DNA from: an uncultured Roseateles sp.
Lineage (GTDB): Bacteria > Pseudomonadota > Gammaproteobacteria > Burkholderiales > Burkholderiaceae
Length of the DNA: 64,000 bases
NCBI GenBank assembly: GCA_946886855.1
Contig: CAMPJJ010000009.1
Location: 1-64,000, forward strand
Direction: 5' to 3'
The translations under genes were made by a program, and so were the position numbers. Shown here piece by piece: positions 2,074-7,162 of the stretch. The notes under the pieces are model-generated. The model did not search any database, was not told the origin of the DNA, and saw nothing but the letters and a program-made list of their open reading frames with translations. The first letter of the stretch is position 1. Each line of letters starts with the position of its first letter.

Positions 2074-2364
2074 TCAGTGGCGCGTGGCGAGCGCCAGTTG
2101 CACCTGCTCCTGCCACGGCAGCATGTGCACGATGCCGTTGAGCTGGATCGCCGATTCGATCGGCGCGAGCACTTCGCCTTCGCAGTTCAGGAACTGCATG
2201 TTGGTCACGAGCGCCATCGGATCCACCATCGAGACGACCCCGTAGGGCATGCGGACCCAGTCCCAGGCCACGCCGGCCGCACCGAATTCGGATTCGCCGC
2301 TCCACAGGGTTTGCCCCATGGCCGGGTGATCCTCGTCTCCCGTCACCAACACGCGCGTGCTCAA
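2074..2364 (-). CDS. conserved hypothetical protein, about 96 aa, next to luxR
   Basis: I do not recognise this protein. The coding frame has non-random composition (GQTLWSGESEFG, then a hydrophobic middle and VHMLPWQEQVQLALA at the end), unlike a shadow frame. The frame extends up to 2445, but a TTG start at 2364, giving MSTRVLVTGDEDHP, looks more natural; the start is not certain. There is no signal peptide or membrane segment. It faces away from the luxR-type gene and shares the 2365-2678 region with it, so it could be co-regulated. It lies tail-to-tail with the NatB gene. Confidence 0.6.
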   Translation of the reverse strand: MSTRVLVTGDEDHPAMGQTLWSGESEFGAAGVAWDWVRMPYGVVSMVDPMALVTNMQFLNCEGEVLAPIESAIQLNGIVHMLPWQEQVQLALATRH

Positions 2365-2678
2365 ATGCGCGAACTGTAAGCGGGGCAAACGCTGGACATC
2401 ACACAATATTCGTGGCCACGCGTACACAATCCAAGCTGGTGTCATTGTCAGAATTGTTTGGTTTGGCTATTGCGGATCGGCGGTTGCTGCTTCTCCCCTT
2501 GACCAGAAGTGTGGTCACGAAGCGGTCGACTCGCCAGCTGTAAACCCTGTCAGGGGCGTGAATGCGTCACGTGACCTATGCGGCCCATGCGGGTGCGTGG
2601 CGCAGCACAGACAGGCGAGCAGGTCCGCCACAGCGACCGAAGAAGGCCCACTAGGCCGGCCACGGGCCGGAGCGATCA
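2365..2678. other. divergent intergenic region upstream of the luxR-type gene
   Basis: This stretch of 314 bases has no convincing gene. It is less GC-rich than its surroundings around 2400-2480 (for example AATTGTTTGGTTTGG) and so probably holds promoters for the divergent neighbours. The motif shared with the peptide promoter lies at 2532-2555. The ribosome-binding site GGAG at 2669-2672 sits six bases before the ATG of the luxR-type gene. Confidence 0.6.
2532..2555 (+). promoter_or_regulatory. LuxR-regulator candidate site upstream of its own gene
   Basis: This block matches the block at 3405-3429 in front of the peptide gene at about 21 of 24 positions with one single-base gap: CGCCAGCT, then GTAAAC, CTGT and AG. 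It contains one lux-box half-site (CCCTGTCAG) but no good second half. It lies about 125 bases before the luxR-type ATG. The likeness suggests the same regulator binds both places, which is inference. Confidence 0.55.
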
Positions 2679-3392
2679 ATGCTGCAAGGCGGTTATCAAT
2701 CAGTCCTGGAAGCGCGCTCACGCGAAGAGTTCCGCAGTGAGGTGATCCGCTTCGCCCAAAAGCTGGACTTCCAGACGGTTTCGGCCATCACGGTCGTGGA
2801 CCACACGCTGGCCGAAACCGAGTTCATCACCATCGACAACTGTCCCGACGGCTACGCGGAGGTGATGCACGCGCCCGAGTTCGGTCGACGCGATCCCGTC
2901 ATGCAGCATTGCAAGCGCAACAGCATGCCGATCGTGTGGGACCGCCAGACCTACGCCCGCCACGGCGCGAGCGACATCTGGGAATCGCAGGCCCAATTCG
3001 GCTACAGCACCGGCATCTGCCTGGCGCTGCACCTGCCGGAGGGTCGGCACTTCGTGCTCGGCGTCGATCGCGATCAACCGCTGCCCAGCGATTCGGCTCA
3101 ACTGACGCGCATGGTCGCCGACCTGCAGCTGTTCGCCGTGCACGCAGTGGACACCGCCCTTCGCGTGCTGCTGCCCGAAGAGAAGGTCACTGAATCGCCG
3201 CGTCTGACGCCGCGCGAGCTCGAGTGCCTGCACTGGACGATGGAAGGAAAGACCGCCTGGGAAGTCGGCGCGATCCTCAGCATCACCGAGCGCACGGCCG
3301 TGCTGCACATCAACAACGCGATGCACAAGCTGGCCTGTTCCAACAAGCACCAAGCGGTGCTCAAGGCCTTGCGGCTCGGCCTGATTCGCTGA
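2679..3392 (+). CDS. LuxR-family regulator with autoinducer-binding domain (LuxR solo)
   Basis: This 237-residue transcription regulator has an N-terminal autoinducer-binding domain (about residues 15-165) and a C-terminal LuxR helix-turn-helix (about 175-237). The HTH includes LTPRELECL and the invariant Glu180 and Gly190. Aligned to TraR, the conserved Asp70-Pro71 and Trp85 are present (D72, P73, W87). The ligand-contacting Trp57 and Tyr61 are replaced by Tyr59 and Met63. No luxI homologue is in the window, so it is a solo, possibly with altered ligand preference. GGAG at 2669-2672 supports the ATG. It stands directly before a lux box and the peptide-export genes, which it probably controls, and a related motif lies upstream of itself. 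Confidence 0.9.
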   Translation: MLQGGYQSVLEARSREEFRSEVIRFAQKLDFQTVSAITVVDHTLAETEFITIDNCPDGYAEVMHAPEFGRRDPVMQHCKRNSMPIVWDRQTYARHGASDIWESQAQFGYSTGICLALHLPEGRHFVLGVDRDQPLPSDSAQLTRMVADLQLFAVHAVDTALRVLLPEEKVTESPRLTPRELECLHWTMEGKTAWEVGAILSITERTAVLHINNAMHKLACSNKHQAVLKALRLGLIR

Positions 3393-3418
3393 TGCTGCCC
3401 TCGGCGCCAGCTTGTAAA

Positions 3419-3438
3419 CACTGTAAGAGCTGACAGTT
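3419..3438 (+). promoter_or_regulatory. lux box in front of the peptide gene
   Basis: CACTGTAAGAGCTGACAGTT is an imperfect palindrome with arms ACTGT and ACAGT. It matches the Burkholderia cep box, as I remember it (CCCTGTAAGAGTTACCAGTT), at 16 of 20 positions. It begins 27 bases after the luxR-type stop codon. A possible -10 element, TTCAAT at 3460-3465, would put the transcription start near 3472 and the box near -43. That is the class II geometry of LuxR-activated promoters. The start site is inferred. Confidence 0.8.
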
Positions 3439-3517
3439 ATGCGGGCATCTGCACGCTGCTTCAATTCGTTCCGTGCTCACGACTTTTCTGGGCACGTCAC
3501 CGAATCTGGAGCCTCTC

Positions 3518-3703
3518 ATGCAAGCCCAATCGCAAAACGTCGTCGTCAACACGCAAGTCGAAGAAGGTCTGGTCGAGTTGGACCTGCAATCCCTCGTGCA
3601 TGTCGGCGGCGGCGCACCCAAGGGCACCTGGCTGGTGGGTCAGACGGTCGTCGTGGAACTGTCCACCGCGGACATCGAACCCGCACCGAAGGGCACCTGG
3701 TAA
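3518..3703 (+). CDS. double-glycine leader peptide precursor with two APKGTW motifs
   Basis: This is a 61-residue precursor. The ATG at 3518 is chosen because GGAG (3508-3511) lies six bases upstream; an in-frame ATG at 3473 has no such site. The leader fits the double-glycine pattern read by C39 peptidases: hydrophobic Leu21, Leu26 and Val29 at -12, -7 and -4, and glycines 30-32 just before the predicted cut after Gly32. The predicted product is 29 residues that both begin (33-38) and end (56-61) with APKGTW, joined by a Val/Glu-rich hydrophobic linker. It has no Cys, so no disulfide or lanthionine is possible. The adaptor and C39 exporter genes follow at once. It could be a bacteriocin, a signal peptide, or the precursor of a modified peptide; no modifying enzyme is adjacent. 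Not a family I recognise. Confidence 0.82.
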   Translation: MQAQSQNVVVNTQVEEGLVELDLQSLVHVGGGAPKGTWLVGQTVVVELSTADIEPAPKGTW

Positions 3704-3753
3704 GCCCTTCGTGCACTGCGATCCGTCAGGTTCGCAACAAGGCGTAGCAAATC

Positions 3754-5001
3754 GTGGTGGCGCTGTTCCGCGCCGAGGCGCAGGCCTCGCAACAGCAGGC
3801 CTGGCTGGGTTCGGTGCAATTGCATCGGCCGACCACCTTGAAATGGCTGAGCCTCTTGGCGCTGGGAGGCGTGATCGCCGTCGGGGCCTTCCTGTTCAGC
3901 ACTGAGTACACCCGCAAGGCCCGCGTCAACGGCTTGCTGGTGCCCGAACGGGGCGTGATGCGGCTGAGCGTGCCGCAGACTGCCACCGTGATGGCACGAC
4001 CCGTCCAGGACGGGCAGCAGGTGCGCGAAGGCGATGTGCTCTTCGTGCTGTCGCTCGACAGCGCGAACCCGACCGGCGATGGCCTGTCGCGGACCTTGAA
4101 GGATCGCGAGTTGTCGTTGGGCGCCGCCCAGGCGCAGCAGAGAGAACTCGCACGGAGTCAGGCGACGTCGCTGAAGGCGCGGATCGCCACGCTCACATCG
4201 ACATTGCAGCAGGCTGATGCCGAGTTGCAGCTGCATGCCCAGCGCGAAGCGCTGGCGCAGCAGAGCCTGGGACGGCTCGAGTCGCTGGCGAAAGACCAGT
4301 TCGTCTCGAGCGCCCAGGTCCAGACCAAGCGGGAGGAGTTGCTTGGCTTGCAGGCCCAACGGCAGGCGCTGGCGCGAGAGCGCGAGAACCTGCAGCGGGA
4401 GGCGTTGGGCTTGCAAGCTGAGCTTCAGTCGATCCCCTTGAAGGCGGAGGTCCAGCAAGGGGAACTCGCGCGCGACATCGCCGCGCTGCAGGCGCAAGGC
4501 GTCGAGAACGAGGCACGTCGGCGGCTCGTCCTGCGCGCGCCCAGCGACGGACAGATGAGCACCGTGCTCGCCGAACCCGGCCAGGTCGTCCAGGCCGGTA
4601 CGCAACTCGCCGCCCTGCTCCCTGCGCGCACGTCGCTGCAGGCCCATCTCTACGCGCCGTCCAGCGCGGTCGGTTTCCTGCGCCCGCACCAGGCCGTGCT
4701 GCTGCGCTATCAGGCCTTCCCGTACCAGAAGTTCGGCCAACAGCAAGGCGAGGTGCTGCAGGTGTCGCGCACGCCGTTGCAAGCCGCGGAGCTCGCGCAG
4801 CTCGGCCTGCCCGCCGCGATGGCGCAAGGGGAACCGATGTACCGCATCACCGTCCAGTTGCAGCGCCAATCGGTCGAGGCCTACGGCCAGGACCAGACGC
4901 TCAGCCCCGGTATGCTGCTCGAAGCCGACGTGCTGCTCGAACGGCGCCGTCTGATCGAATGGATTTTCGAACCGCTGCTGAGCCTCGCCCGCCGTGTCTG
5001 A
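3754..5001 (+). CDS. HlyD/CvaA-type membrane fusion protein for peptide export
   Basis: This 415-residue periplasmic adaptor would link the C39 ABC exporter to an outer-membrane TolC-like channel. After the FRAEA-QQQAWLG N-terminus, common to bacteriocin HlyD proteins, comes one membrane segment at about residues 29-50. Two lipoyl half-motifs follow, flanking a long Gln/Ala/Leu/Glu-rich coiled coil at about 110-250, and a beta-barrel C-terminal half. A GTG start at 3754 (with a second GTG next to it) is used because there is no better ATG. It begins 50 bases after the precursor stop, and its end overlaps the exporter gene by eight bases. No tolC is in the window. Confidence 0.9.
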   Translation: MVALFRAEAQASQQQAWLGSVQLHRPTTLKWLSLLALGGVIAVGAFLFSTEYTRKARVNGLLVPERGVMRLSVPQTATVMARPVQDGQQVREGDVLFVLSLDSANPTGDGLSRTLKDRELSLGAAQAQQRELARSQATSLKARIATLTSTLQQADAELQLHAQREALAQQSLGRLESLAKDQFVSSAQVQTKREELLGLQAQRQALARERENLQREALGLQAELQSIPLKAEVQQGELARDIAALQAQGVENEARRRLVLRAPSDGQMSTVLAEPGQVVQAGTQLAALLPARTSLQAHLYAPSSAVGFLRPHQAVLLRYQAFPYQKFGQQQGEVLQVSRTPLQAAELAQLGLPAAMAQGEPMYRITVQLQRQSVEAYGQDQTLSPGMLLEADVLLERRRLIEWIFEPLLSLARRV

Positions 5002-7162
5002 TGCCCCCTCTTCCGGCGCGCCCGTCACAGGCGCCACGTCCGATGGCATCCTGTCGCGGCTGAATCTCGGCTGGCGTCGACGCCGACCGGTCATCCTGCA
5101 GACCGAGGCCGCTGAATGCGGCCTTGCCTGCCTGGCCATGGTCGCCGCGGCGCACGGACAGCGCTGGACGCTGGGCGAATTGCGCGACCGCTTTGCGGTC
5201 TCCCTCAAGGGACTGACCATGGCGGACCTGGTGCGCATGGGCGCGCAGCTCGGTCTCACCGCCCGCGCGCTGCGCGCCGAACCGCACACGCTTCACAAGC
5301 TGCAGACGCCTTGCATCCTGCACTGGGATTTCAACCACTTCGTCGTGCTGGAACGCGTCGACGGAGACAGGGTCCTGGTCCTCGACCCCGCCCACGGCGA
5401 GCGCAAGTTGACGCTGGCCGAGGTGTCCAAGCATTTCACCGGTGTGGCGCTCGAATTGCGCCCGGGCATGGACTTCGCGCGCAAGGCGCCGGCGCCCGCG
5501 CCGAAGTGGCGCCAGTTGCTCGGCCACGTGACCGGCCTCAAGCGCTCGATCGCGCAAGTCCTGGCCCTCGCGCTGGGCTTGGAACTGCTCGGCCTGCTGG
5601 CGCCCTTCCTGTTGCAATGGACCGTCGATGGCGTCATCGTCAGCGCAGACCGCGACCTGCTCGTGACACTGGGCATCGGCTTCGCCCTGCTGGTGCTGCT
5701 GCAAGTGAGCGTCGGACTGCTGCGCTCGTGGGCGGTGATGATCCTGTCGGCGTCGTTGAATCTGCAGTGGCTCTCCAACGTCTTCTCGCATCTGTTGAGG
5801 CTGCCGCTGGCCTGGTTCGAGAAACGCCATCTCGGCGACATCTGGTCGCGCTTCTCCAGCGTGCAGGAGATCCAGAAGACGCTCACCGGCAGCTTCATCG
5901 AGGCGATCCTCGACGGCGTGATGGTGCTGCTGACGCTGGCGATGATGGTGCTTTACAGCGGCCGGCTGACGGCCGTCGCGCTGGCTGCGGTGGCCGGCTA
6001 CGCGCTGCTGCGCTGGGCCTGTTTCCGGCCGTTGCGCGACGCGCAGGAAGAAGCGCTGACCCACGAGGCACGCCAGAACACCCACTTCCTCGAATCGCTG
6101 CGCGGCGCGCAGGCGATCAAGCTCTTCAACGCGCAGGCGGACCGCGGCGCGCGATTCGCCAACCTGGTCGTCGAGCAGATGAACGCGTCGCTGACCGGCC
6201 GCAAGCTCGAACTCGGCATGACCCAAGGCAACAAGCTGCTGTTCGGCCTGGAGCGCGTGGTCATCGTCGCGATGGGCGCGATGCTGGTGCTGGACAAGGA
6301 GCTGTCGGTGGGGATGCTGTTCGCGTTCCTCGCCTACAAGGACCAGTTCAGCCAACGCATCGCGGGGCTGATCGACAAGGTGGTCGCGCTGAAGATGCTG
6401 CGCCTGCAGGGCGAGCGCCTGGCCGACATCGTGCTGACGGCACCGGAAGCCGAGTTCGAGGCACCCGGCCGCGCCGTGCCGCTCGACGCGGCACTGGAAC
6501 TCGACGGCCTACGCTTCCGTTATGCCGACGGGGAACCCGAGGTCATCGCCGGGTGCTCGCTGCGGATCGAACCGGGCGAGTCGGTCGCCATCGTGGGCCC
6601 CTCGGGCTGCGGCAAGACGACGTTGATGAAGCTGATGCTGGGCATCCATGCGCCGCAGCACGGCGAGATCCGCATCGGCGGCGTGGCCTTGCCGCAGTTG
6701 GGTGCGAATGCCTGGCGCGAGCGCATCGGCACGGTGATGCAGGACGACCAGCTCTTCGCGGGCAGCATCGCCGACAACATCAGCTTCTTCGACCTCGACG
6801 TCGATCCGGACTGGGTGCGCGAATGCGCGCGGCTCGCCTGCGTGCTCGAGGACATCGAGGCCATGCCGATGCGCTTGCAGACGCTCATCGGCGACATGGG
6901 GTCCAGTCTCTCCGGCGGGCAGCGCCAACGCATCCTGCTGGCGCGAGCGCTGTACAAACGGCCGCGCTTCCTGTTCCTGGACGAGGCGACCAGCGCGCTC
7001 GACGTGGAGCGCGAGCGGCTCGTCAACGCGAGCCTGCGCCAGCTGTCGTTGACGCGGATCGTCATTGCGCACCGCCCCGAGACGATCGCTGCGGCGCAGC
7101 GCGTCGTCAGCCTTCAGGGCGGGCGCGTGGTGCAGGACCTTCGATCCGTCCAGCACCGCTGA
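4994..7162 (+). CDS. C39 peptidase-containing ABC exporter (PCAT) for the APKGTW peptide
   Basis: This 722-residue protein should cut the leader behind the double glycine and export the peptide. The N-terminal C39 peptidase domain (about 32-160) has the full active site: Gln36, Cys42 in AECGLACLAM, His115 in NHFVVL and Asp131 in LDP. The membrane domain spans about 170-450. The nucleotide-binding domain has Walker A (GPSGCGKTT), signature [15 protein letters not shown], Walker B FLFLDEATSALD and the H-loop in IAHRPET. It overlaps the adaptor gene by eight bases. The architecture is that of CvaB/LagD-type bacteriocin exporters. All catalytic residues are present, so proteolysis and transport should both work. 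Confidence 0.93.
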   Translation: MSDAPSSGAPVTGATSDGILSRLNLGWRRRRPVILQTEAAECGLACLAMVAAAHGQRWTLGELRDRFAVSLKGLTMADLVRMGAQLGLTARALRAEPHTLHKLQTPCILHWDFNHFVVLERVDGDRVLVLDPAHGERKLTLAEVSKHFTGVALELRPGMDFARKAPAPAPKWRQLLGHVTGLKRSIAQVLALALGLELLGLLAPFLLQWTVDGVIVSADRDLLVTLGIGFALLVLLQVSVGLLRSWAVMILSASLNLQWLSNVFSHLLRLPLAWFEKRHLGDIWSRFSSVQEIQKTLTGSFIEAILDGVMVLLTLAMMVLYSGRLTAVALAAVAGYALLRWACFRPLRDAQEEALTHEARQNTHFLESLRGAQAIKLFNAQADRGARFANLVVEQMNASLTGRKLELGMTQGNKLLFGLERVVIVAMGAMLVLDKELSVGMLFAFLAYKDQFSQRIAGLIDKVVALKMLRLQGERLADIVLTAPEAEFEAPGRAVPLDAALELDGLRFRYADGEPEVIAGCSLRIEPGESVAIVGPSGCGKTTLMKLMLGIHAPQHGEIRIGGVALPQLGANAWRERIGTVMQDDQLFAGSIADNISFFDLDVDPDWVRECARLACVLEDIEAMPMRLQTLIGDMGSSLSGGQRQRILLARALYKRPRFLFLDEATSALDVERERLVNASLRQLSLTRIVIAHRPETIAAAQRVVSLQGGRVVQDLRSVQHR

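Follow-up and report, generated by a model that had tools for sequence, protein, structure and literature searches.

The cassette described here occupies positions 2679 to 7162 of a 64,000-nucleotide (nt) stretch of DNA from an uncultured Roseateles sp. (contig CAMPJJ010000009.1 of assembly GCA_946886855.1), referred to below as the window. It comprises, in order and on one strand, a luxR gene, a lux box, a precursor gene with a double-glycine (GG) leader, an hlyD gene, and a gene for a C39 ATP-binding cassette (ABC) exporter. Our comparison suggests that this is probably a quorum-sensing system in which an autoinducing peptide acts through a LuxR-family receptor; a hexapeptide carried by the precursor, here APKGTW, would be the LuxR ligand. 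In a broader form of this proposal, which we regard as reasonably likely, the cassette would represent a Gram-negative class of quorum sensing in which luxI is replaced by a ribosomally made pheromone, an x-P-[K/R]-x-x-W hexapeptide that LuxR senses directly, with APKGTW and TPKGTW pherotypes swapped by recombination of the LuxR ligand-binding domain (LBD), and with GG-exported and leaderless forms of a gene arrangement found in at least 32 genera of a single family. A peptide signal was one of two options offered in an earlier note on this DNA and is now the favored one. The finding is both wider and more specific than that note supposed.

As compared between species, the conserved unit of the precursor is the hexapeptide and not the 29-residue core as a whole, which the earlier note had taken as the product unit. 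The precursor gene (3518 to 3703, plus strand; ATG at 3518, stop codon at 3701 to 3703) encodes 61 amino acids (aa), with a leader (residues 1 to 31) that reads ...LVHVGG and a core from G32 to W61. The core holds the hexapeptide (659 Da) twice, as copy 1 (A33 to W38; 3614 to 3631, plus strand), which is kept in APKGTW-type (A-type) relatives while the spacer varies, and as a C-terminal copy 2 (A56 to W61; 3683 to 3700, plus strand) of the same sequence. Leader and spacer diverge between species and the motif x-P-[K/R/other]-x-x-W persists, positioned after the GG, at the C terminus, or at both places, in versions that include APKGTW, TPKGTW, GPKGGW, APKSTW, APRSRW, LPKKVW, and APGRRW, among others. 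One version, APTKGW, present twice in genome G007, was missed by the precursor search. The copy number ranges from one to five (five in L150 and L043), and the copies within a precursor agree with one another. Of 22 multi-copy precursors tabulated by hand, which cover 21 different motifs, 19 carried identical copies, compared to a mean of 0.96 and a maximum of 7 when the pairing was shuffled. An extreme example of economy is found in single-copy precursors such as ...VSGGAPGRRW, where the predicted mature product is only the six residues directly after the GG. This length fits a pheromone and not a class II bacteriocin. The bacteriocin option of the earlier note is less likely given such products and the leaderless forms of 9 to 20 codons without an exporter relative described below. 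A phage origin was also considered and rejected, as no relative of the precursor was found among viral contigs and the locus is fixed between abcF/natB-like genes and mnmG in most of the named loci.

It is very probable, judging from the promoter sequences, that LuxR controls the peptide operon. The lux box that the earlier note had placed ahead of the precursor operon has perfect arms, CTGT-N8-ACAG (3421 to 3436), and its TGACA may overlap a -35-like element. A degenerate box, CTGTAAACCCTGTCAG (2538 to 2553), lies upstream of luxR; it matches at 7 of 8 arm positions and departs from the search pattern at a single position. When CTGTMANNNNTKACAG was searched at up to one mismatch, these were the only two sites in the window (0.15 expected; 2 of 100 shuffles reached two). 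The arrangement is recurrent across a set of 65 loci (the window, 16 loci from the precursor search, and 48 loci from named genomes), which represent 53 distinct LuxR proteins. The box between luxR and the precursor has perfect arms in 61 loci and at least 7 of 8 arm positions in 64, compared to 0.1 and 3.6 to 3.8, respectively, expected in this gap from mononucleotide shuffles, and of the 64 loci whose sequence extends upstream of luxR, 63 have a weaker box there that matches at 7 or more of the 8 arm positions (4.8 expected by the same shuffles). Across 16 genomes of the genus, CTGTMANNNNTKACAG occurs once at the cassette locus and zero to two times elsewhere, and its reversed control pattern occurs once in three genomes and not at all in the other 13.

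Among the loci compared, the type of the peptide (APKGTW or TPKGTW) follows the LuxR LBD against the tree of the flanking genes. First, the window and the TPKGTW-type (T-type) locus L025 share 86 to 92% nt identity in abcF, natB, orf5, tct, mnmG, hlyD, abc, and the helix-turn-helix (HTH) part of luxR, and 72% and 69% in the luxR LBD and the leader, respectively. At third codon positions, the same pair is 79% identical in the HTH (70 to 79% for A-type relatives) and 58% in the LBD (74 to 82% for A-type relatives). Second, between six A-type and six T-type LuxRs there are 42 separating positions in the LBD, one in the linker, and none in the HTH. Third, the trees disagree. In the tree of abcF, natB, and orf5, the T-type loci L025 and L027 are nested inside the APKGTW clade, and the approximately unbiased (AU) test gives a P value of 2.6e-7 against T as one clade and 0.00595 against A as one clade. 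In the luxR LBD tree, A and T are separate, with supports of 100/99 and 100/100 and an AU P value of 1.4e-5 against the flank grouping. Finally, LBD distance correlates with motif distance when orf5 and HTH distances are held constant (partial Mantel r of 0.209 and P of 0.0115 for 29 dereplicated loci; r of 0.301 and P of 0.0005 for all 50 loci), and HTH distance given orf5 shows no correlation with motif distance (P of 0.87).

The ligand-binding pocket itself also departs from that of acyl-homoserine lactone (AHL) receptors. The regulator (237 aa; 2679 to 3392, plus strand) consists of an LBD at about residues 1 to 165 and an HTH at about residues 174 to 237, as delimited by Pfam, fold, and alignments. 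It matches PF03472 (E of 1.5e-23) and PF00196 (E of 6e-15), and its structural model (pLDDT of 88.2) is closest to QscR, SdiA, RhlR, and LasR; it is therefore a LuxR-family autoinducer-binding regulator by domains and receptor fold. For the AHL-receptor signature, we take the six residues to be W-Y-D-P-W-G in TraR numbering, mapped here via the alignment. At these places the window LuxR has Y59, M63, D72, P73, W87, and G112, so that, by alignment, it does not carry the full signature. The first two positions, both AHL contacts, are the ones generally lost. In a 38-sequence alignment, Y or F takes the place of TraR W57 in 36 sequences and W is kept in one, and the position of Y61 retains Y in five. 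These losses, together with the differences between A and T types and the distance correlation given above, point to LuxR itself as the probable sensor.

These residues bear on an alternative in which an AHL-sensing LuxR solo switches on a secreted peptide, a bacteriocin or public good, that is the output and not the signal. This alternative, which we consider unlikely, draws on the PF03472 domain, on the D, P, W, and G of the signature being mostly kept, on a fold nearest to that of AHL receptors, and on C39 exporters commonly carrying bacteriocins. However, most members have lost W57 and Y61, the LBD type tracks the peptide type, and hexapeptide-sized products and leaderless ORFs (open reading frames) of 9 to 20 codons still accompany luxR at loci that have no exporter relative next to them. 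The same losses, together with the agreement between LBD and peptide types, mean that the combination of AHL-style sensing with peptide export suggested in the earlier note fits less well than the peptide as the signal. In addition, no immunity gene is evident in the window operon, as that note had stated (other loci were not searched). The absence is no puzzle when the peptide is read as a signal instead of a bacteriocin, and a bacteriocin with an immunity gene was rejected, the operon offering no candidate and the neighboring gene being RsaM-like.

The pairing of luxR with a hexapeptide ORF is widespread in the family. The window is Roseateles/Mitsuaria-like, with the nearest precursor, 97% identical, from a Roseateles sp. 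and the nearest named loci from Roseateles, Mitsuaria, and a Rubrivivax metagenome-assembled genome. The precursor search was positive in 16 of 120 relatives, and scanning named genomes for luxR yielded 48 loci. Of these 48, 47 have a divergent small gene beside luxR (the remaining contig begins inside luxR), 36 have relatives of both hlyD and abc beside luxR, and 36 have mnmG within the retrieved stretch; in most, the cassette sits at a fixed site between the abcF/natB-like genes and mnmG. The earlier note had proposed a search of genomes for synteny of luxR, precursor, and C39 exporter and had named the lack of such an order in relatives as grounds for refutation; the order is widespread, so that this objection falls. 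Among 399 genomes of the family, 99 have a luxR match at E ≤1e-55, and 123 luxR stop codons from 89 genomes were readable in the fetched stretches. An ORF of 10 to 100 aa ending in P-x(2-4)-W-x(0-2) and starting within 260 nt of the luxR stop was found after 77 of the 123, compared to 2.95 in mononucleotide shuffles and one on the opposite strand. The positive loci cover 74 of the 89 genomes and 32 of 35 genera, and 66 of the 77 include an ORF of more than 40 aa holding GG or GA. Among the closer loci, those of ≥56% identity (one more was too short and was skipped), 67 of 77 follow this rule, and in all 67 the box matches at 7 or more of the 8 arm positions. Six of the ten others are variants, with LPRVG (L138 and L141) or a motif not at the very end (L168, L178, L180, and L184); L133 has APRTTW with the ATG in another frame, the L142 sequence is truncated, L100:7537 is an additional luxR copy within an array, and no peptide is present in L159. 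Short ORFs with P-x(2-4)-W also follow 3 of 80 other window ORFs of at least 200 aa (spurious frames included). A single case can therefore be due to chance, and it is the repeated occurrence at one position that carries the claim. A pooled background from outside the window (930 ORFs, with 69 hits in total) is not used for comparison, since the luxR genes of L017 to L064 were still among its ORFs. In an order-wide scan of 300 genomes there were three luxR matches at E ≤1e-60, two of them inside the same family, and no such peptide was found in the only one outside it (G521).

Further variation was seen around these loci. In L099, L100, L101, L102, and L103, three to five luxR paralogues stand in tandem at or near the locus, and one copy in each array precedes a hexapeptide ORF; one guess is that the extra LuxRs are receptors for foreign pherotypes. 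A distant luxR branch (L109 to L117 and L188 to L203; about 42 to 56% identity) mostly has an orf5-like neighbor where there is enough sequence, and many of its loci have ORFs of 9 to 28 codons at the equivalent place. Those of L113, L117, L200, and L202 have a hydrophobic stretch followed by a terminal LP[KR]xGG; other tiny ORFs of this branch end in PRVGF, and a nine-codon case ends in PRVGW. Where the lux box would be, some loci carry different palindromes that are singly not significant, and palindromic boxes are not claimed for this branch, as most loci were no better than Markov shuffles. In addition, a different double-glycine peptide family adjoins a different C39-type ABC gene in L083 and L084 (genomes G004 and G016), where its GGPQ[IV]TND cores are present in four copies and one copy, respectively.

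The exporter is an optional part of the cassette, as far as gene content shows. Six loci have no adjoining exporter and keep the GG leader (L024, L026, L027, L028, L041, and L061); in the Roseateles genomes matching these loci, other ABC genes align over the C39 region. Seven loci are leaderless and without an hlyD or C39 ABC relative alongside (L043, L058, L104, L108, L143, L156, and L160), and the perfect box is kept in all seven; L114 is leaderless and lacks the perfect-box pattern. The leaderless ORFs, which in some lineages span 9 to 20 codons, may carry repeats (TPRGG[GS]W five times in L043, LPKSGW three times in L058, and three copies in L108) or be as small as the ten-codon MQVLLPRNAW of L160. 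Because these loci retain luxR, box, and hexapeptide, the three together appear to be the lasting unit in this branch. They also suit an alternative in which the hexapeptide serves LuxR or RsaM as ligand or cofactor within the producer, for self-sensing or feedback, with export as disposal or a lineage-specific addition. We consider this improbable, since relatives of both hlyD and abc stand beside luxR in three-quarters of the named loci (36 of 48), most positive loci include a longer ORF with GG or GA, and leaderless peptides can be signals, as in the RopB case with its leaderless communication peptide (LCP) (PMC10518010, in the sections drawn on here). Far less probable still is a translation-arrest or leader peptide that regulates downstream genes with PKxxW-stop as the arrest motif. 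The tiny ORFs, the conserved Pro, and a Trp that ends the peptide just before the stop codon would suit such a role, but up to five near-identical copies per ORF, GG leaders, and copies far from the stop codon would not, and the next conserved gene found at loci without an exporter is mnmG, a housekeeping gene some distance away.

The gene divergent from luxR fits a quorum-sensing locus. The earlier note had listed it as an unknown gene at 2074 to 2364; the gene more likely spans 2074 to 2445, because the N terminus is conserved in relatives, and the product (123 aa; 2074 to 2445, minus strand) is no longer unknown, being a quorum-sensing-type modulator of the RsaM type (PF16245/DUF4902 family) with the RsaM fold. 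At E ≤1, PF16245 matches 30 of 38 family members (best E of 9.3e-7), and the window protein itself gives no match. W48, W61, W63, and W111 are invariant in the 38-row alignment and are candidates for the four conserved Trp of RsaM. With an RsaM-type gene as divergent neighbor, the peptide gene therefore occupies the place where luxI could sit. In line with the earlier description of the cassette, luxI is absent at the locus, and it is also absent from 12 of the 16 genus genomes, the nearest one among them; the other four have a luxI. A relation between luxI absence and exporter presence, clean in early counts, was dropped, as G007 has both exporter and luxI.

The remaining parts of the window cassette agree with peptide export. 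The HlyD-type periplasmic adaptor (3754 to 5001, plus strand) matches PF13437, with a TIGR01843 match below cut-off, and its gene overlaps that of the exporter by 8 nt. The peptidase-containing ABC exporter (4994 to 7162, plus strand) matches PF03412, PF00664, and PF00005, and C42, H115, and D131, which we take to be the C39 catalytic triad, are all present. With this domain, triad, and adjoining GG-leader substrate, it is a C39 ABC exporter of double-glycine peptides, and the gene order and intact protease site given in the earlier note agree with these coordinates and domains. The cassette encodes no importer and no kinase.

A working model of the autoinducing peptide system would be as follows. 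The C39 ABC/HlyD pair would cut the precursor at the GG and export a peptide that carries at least one x-P-[K/R]-x-x-W hexapeptide, in this case APKGTW. The hexapeptide would be freed outside the cell, re-enter neighboring cells via porins and a peptide importer encoded elsewhere, and bind the LuxR LBD. LuxR would then activate, and not repress, the lux box of the precursor operon, giving positive feedback, as well as other targets such as a secreted M4 metalloprotease, and the divergently encoded RsaM-type protein would damp the loop.

Another predicted target is this M4 protease, a secreted metalloprotease that is thermolysin-like by Pfam, whose gene has a lux-box-like site upstream in all 15 genus genomes that have it. 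The sites match at least 10 of 12 positions, at -187 to -270 from the match start, and the next best reach at most 9. The other regulon sites are scattered. Boxes are found close to homologous proteins (a 341-aa protein) of no known Pfam family in G007 and G008, and the G003 homologue has no box. It is only a thought that the M4 protease could be a second protease that frees the hexapeptide, and a weak one because the residues after copy 1 vary (L, N, Q, and S). In L245 to L259, the palindrome upstream of the M4 gene is shared with a divergent gene, presumably AidB-like, where looked at. A box-like site, CTGTCAGGCATTACAG, occurs in G001 and G013 (loci L232 and L233); it adjoins an FHA-domain gene in L233, and a similar gene is present in L232.

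Several observations weigh against the hexapeptide as LuxR ligand. First, the equivalents of TraR D70, P71, and G113 are invariant in the 38-sequence alignment and that of W85 is kept in 33, so that an AHL or other small ligand is still conceivable. Second, the case for LBD swapping has counterpoints. Identity between the window and L025 is also low upstream of luxR (76%), and their core identity of 70% is uninformative because the A-type loci L018 and L020 are 69 to 70% there. Trees of the HTH alone, the precursor alone, and the HTH with the intergenic region do not decide between the histories, and the A/T switch amounts to one or two events only. For the 29 dereplicated loci, orf5 distance also correlates with motif distance given HTH (r of 0.24, P of 0.0025) and less so given LBD (r of 0.11, P of 0.067). 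Third, there are LPRVS and LPRVG variants without Trp (L036, L037, L040, and L064), the release of copy 1 requires that another protease cut again after its Trp, and the leaderless forms need an alternative way out of the cell. Fourth, 46 of the 123 luxR stops are not followed by a peptide that fits the rule, many of these being extra members of tandem arrays or members of the distant branch, and L060 and L159 retain luxR and the RsaM-type gene with box, peptide, and neighboring exporter all gone. Finally, the M4 sites count as one conserved observation and not as independent ones because the promoters are orthologous, and four genus genomes do carry luxI.

If the proposal is true, a LuxR that reads an encoded hexapeptide would join Gram-positive-style peptide sensing with the LuxR family, and many LuxR solos and rsaM-luxR pairs would gain a ligand that can be read straight from DNA. 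Such signals would be genetically encoded and easy to synthesize and test. Gene annotation likely misses the peptide ORFs because they can be as short as 9 to 10 codons.

Cytosolic sensing of peptide pheromones is known mainly from Gram-positive bacteria, where the RRNPPA receptors are tetratricopeptide repeat (TPR) proteins, and LuxR receptors are textbook AHL sensors. The results suggest a classic family of chemical-signal receptors turned to the sensing of peptide signals. In the ComC/ComAB type of pheromone export, a GG leader and a C39 ABC exporter are combined with a histidine kinase sensor; the present cassette shares the leader and the exporter and differs in having no kinase. No description of a LuxR paired with an encoded peptide pheromone was found among the matches listed in the open-licence literature (subscription papers and preprints were outside this scope). 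The LuxR/LuxI AHL systems with rsaM, in particular the type 6 rsaM-luxR solo (PMC10710839), resemble the cassette in their LuxR regulator, lux boxes, and RsaM-type divergent neighbor, whereas here there is no luxI at the locus and a ribosomal hexapeptide gene follows luxR. The text of that review contains no word beginning with "peptide." PipR of Pseudomonas sp. GM79, an OryR-type LuxR solo, is likewise a LuxR homologue that responds to a peptide. In the sections of PMC4981722 drawn on here, it answers Ser-His-Ser as an exogenous signal, only at ≥1 mM, and requires an ABC-type peptide transporter; those sections give it no encoded signal peptide, and a review of LuxR solos, in the portion used, names an ethanolamine derivative as its ligand. 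The class C LuxR solos PluR and PauR share endogenous non-AHL signals and WYDPWG substitutions with the present LuxR, but their signals are photopyrones and dialkylresorcinols and they are described, in the relevant sections of PMC10134790, without autoinduction, whereas here the signal would be ribosomal and a lux box precedes its gene. The nearest analogue in logic would be RopB with its leaderless peptides, among the Firmicutes RRNPPA systems. In the sections of PMC10518010 drawn on here, these have a tiny ORF beside a cytosolic receptor-activator, a signal of 5 to 8 residues, leaderless forms, differing peptide codes, and a secreted protease target. In contrast to the TPR-domain receptors of the RRNPP/LCP systems, the candidate receptor here is of the LuxR family, in Burkholderiales, and mostly accompanied by C39 export.

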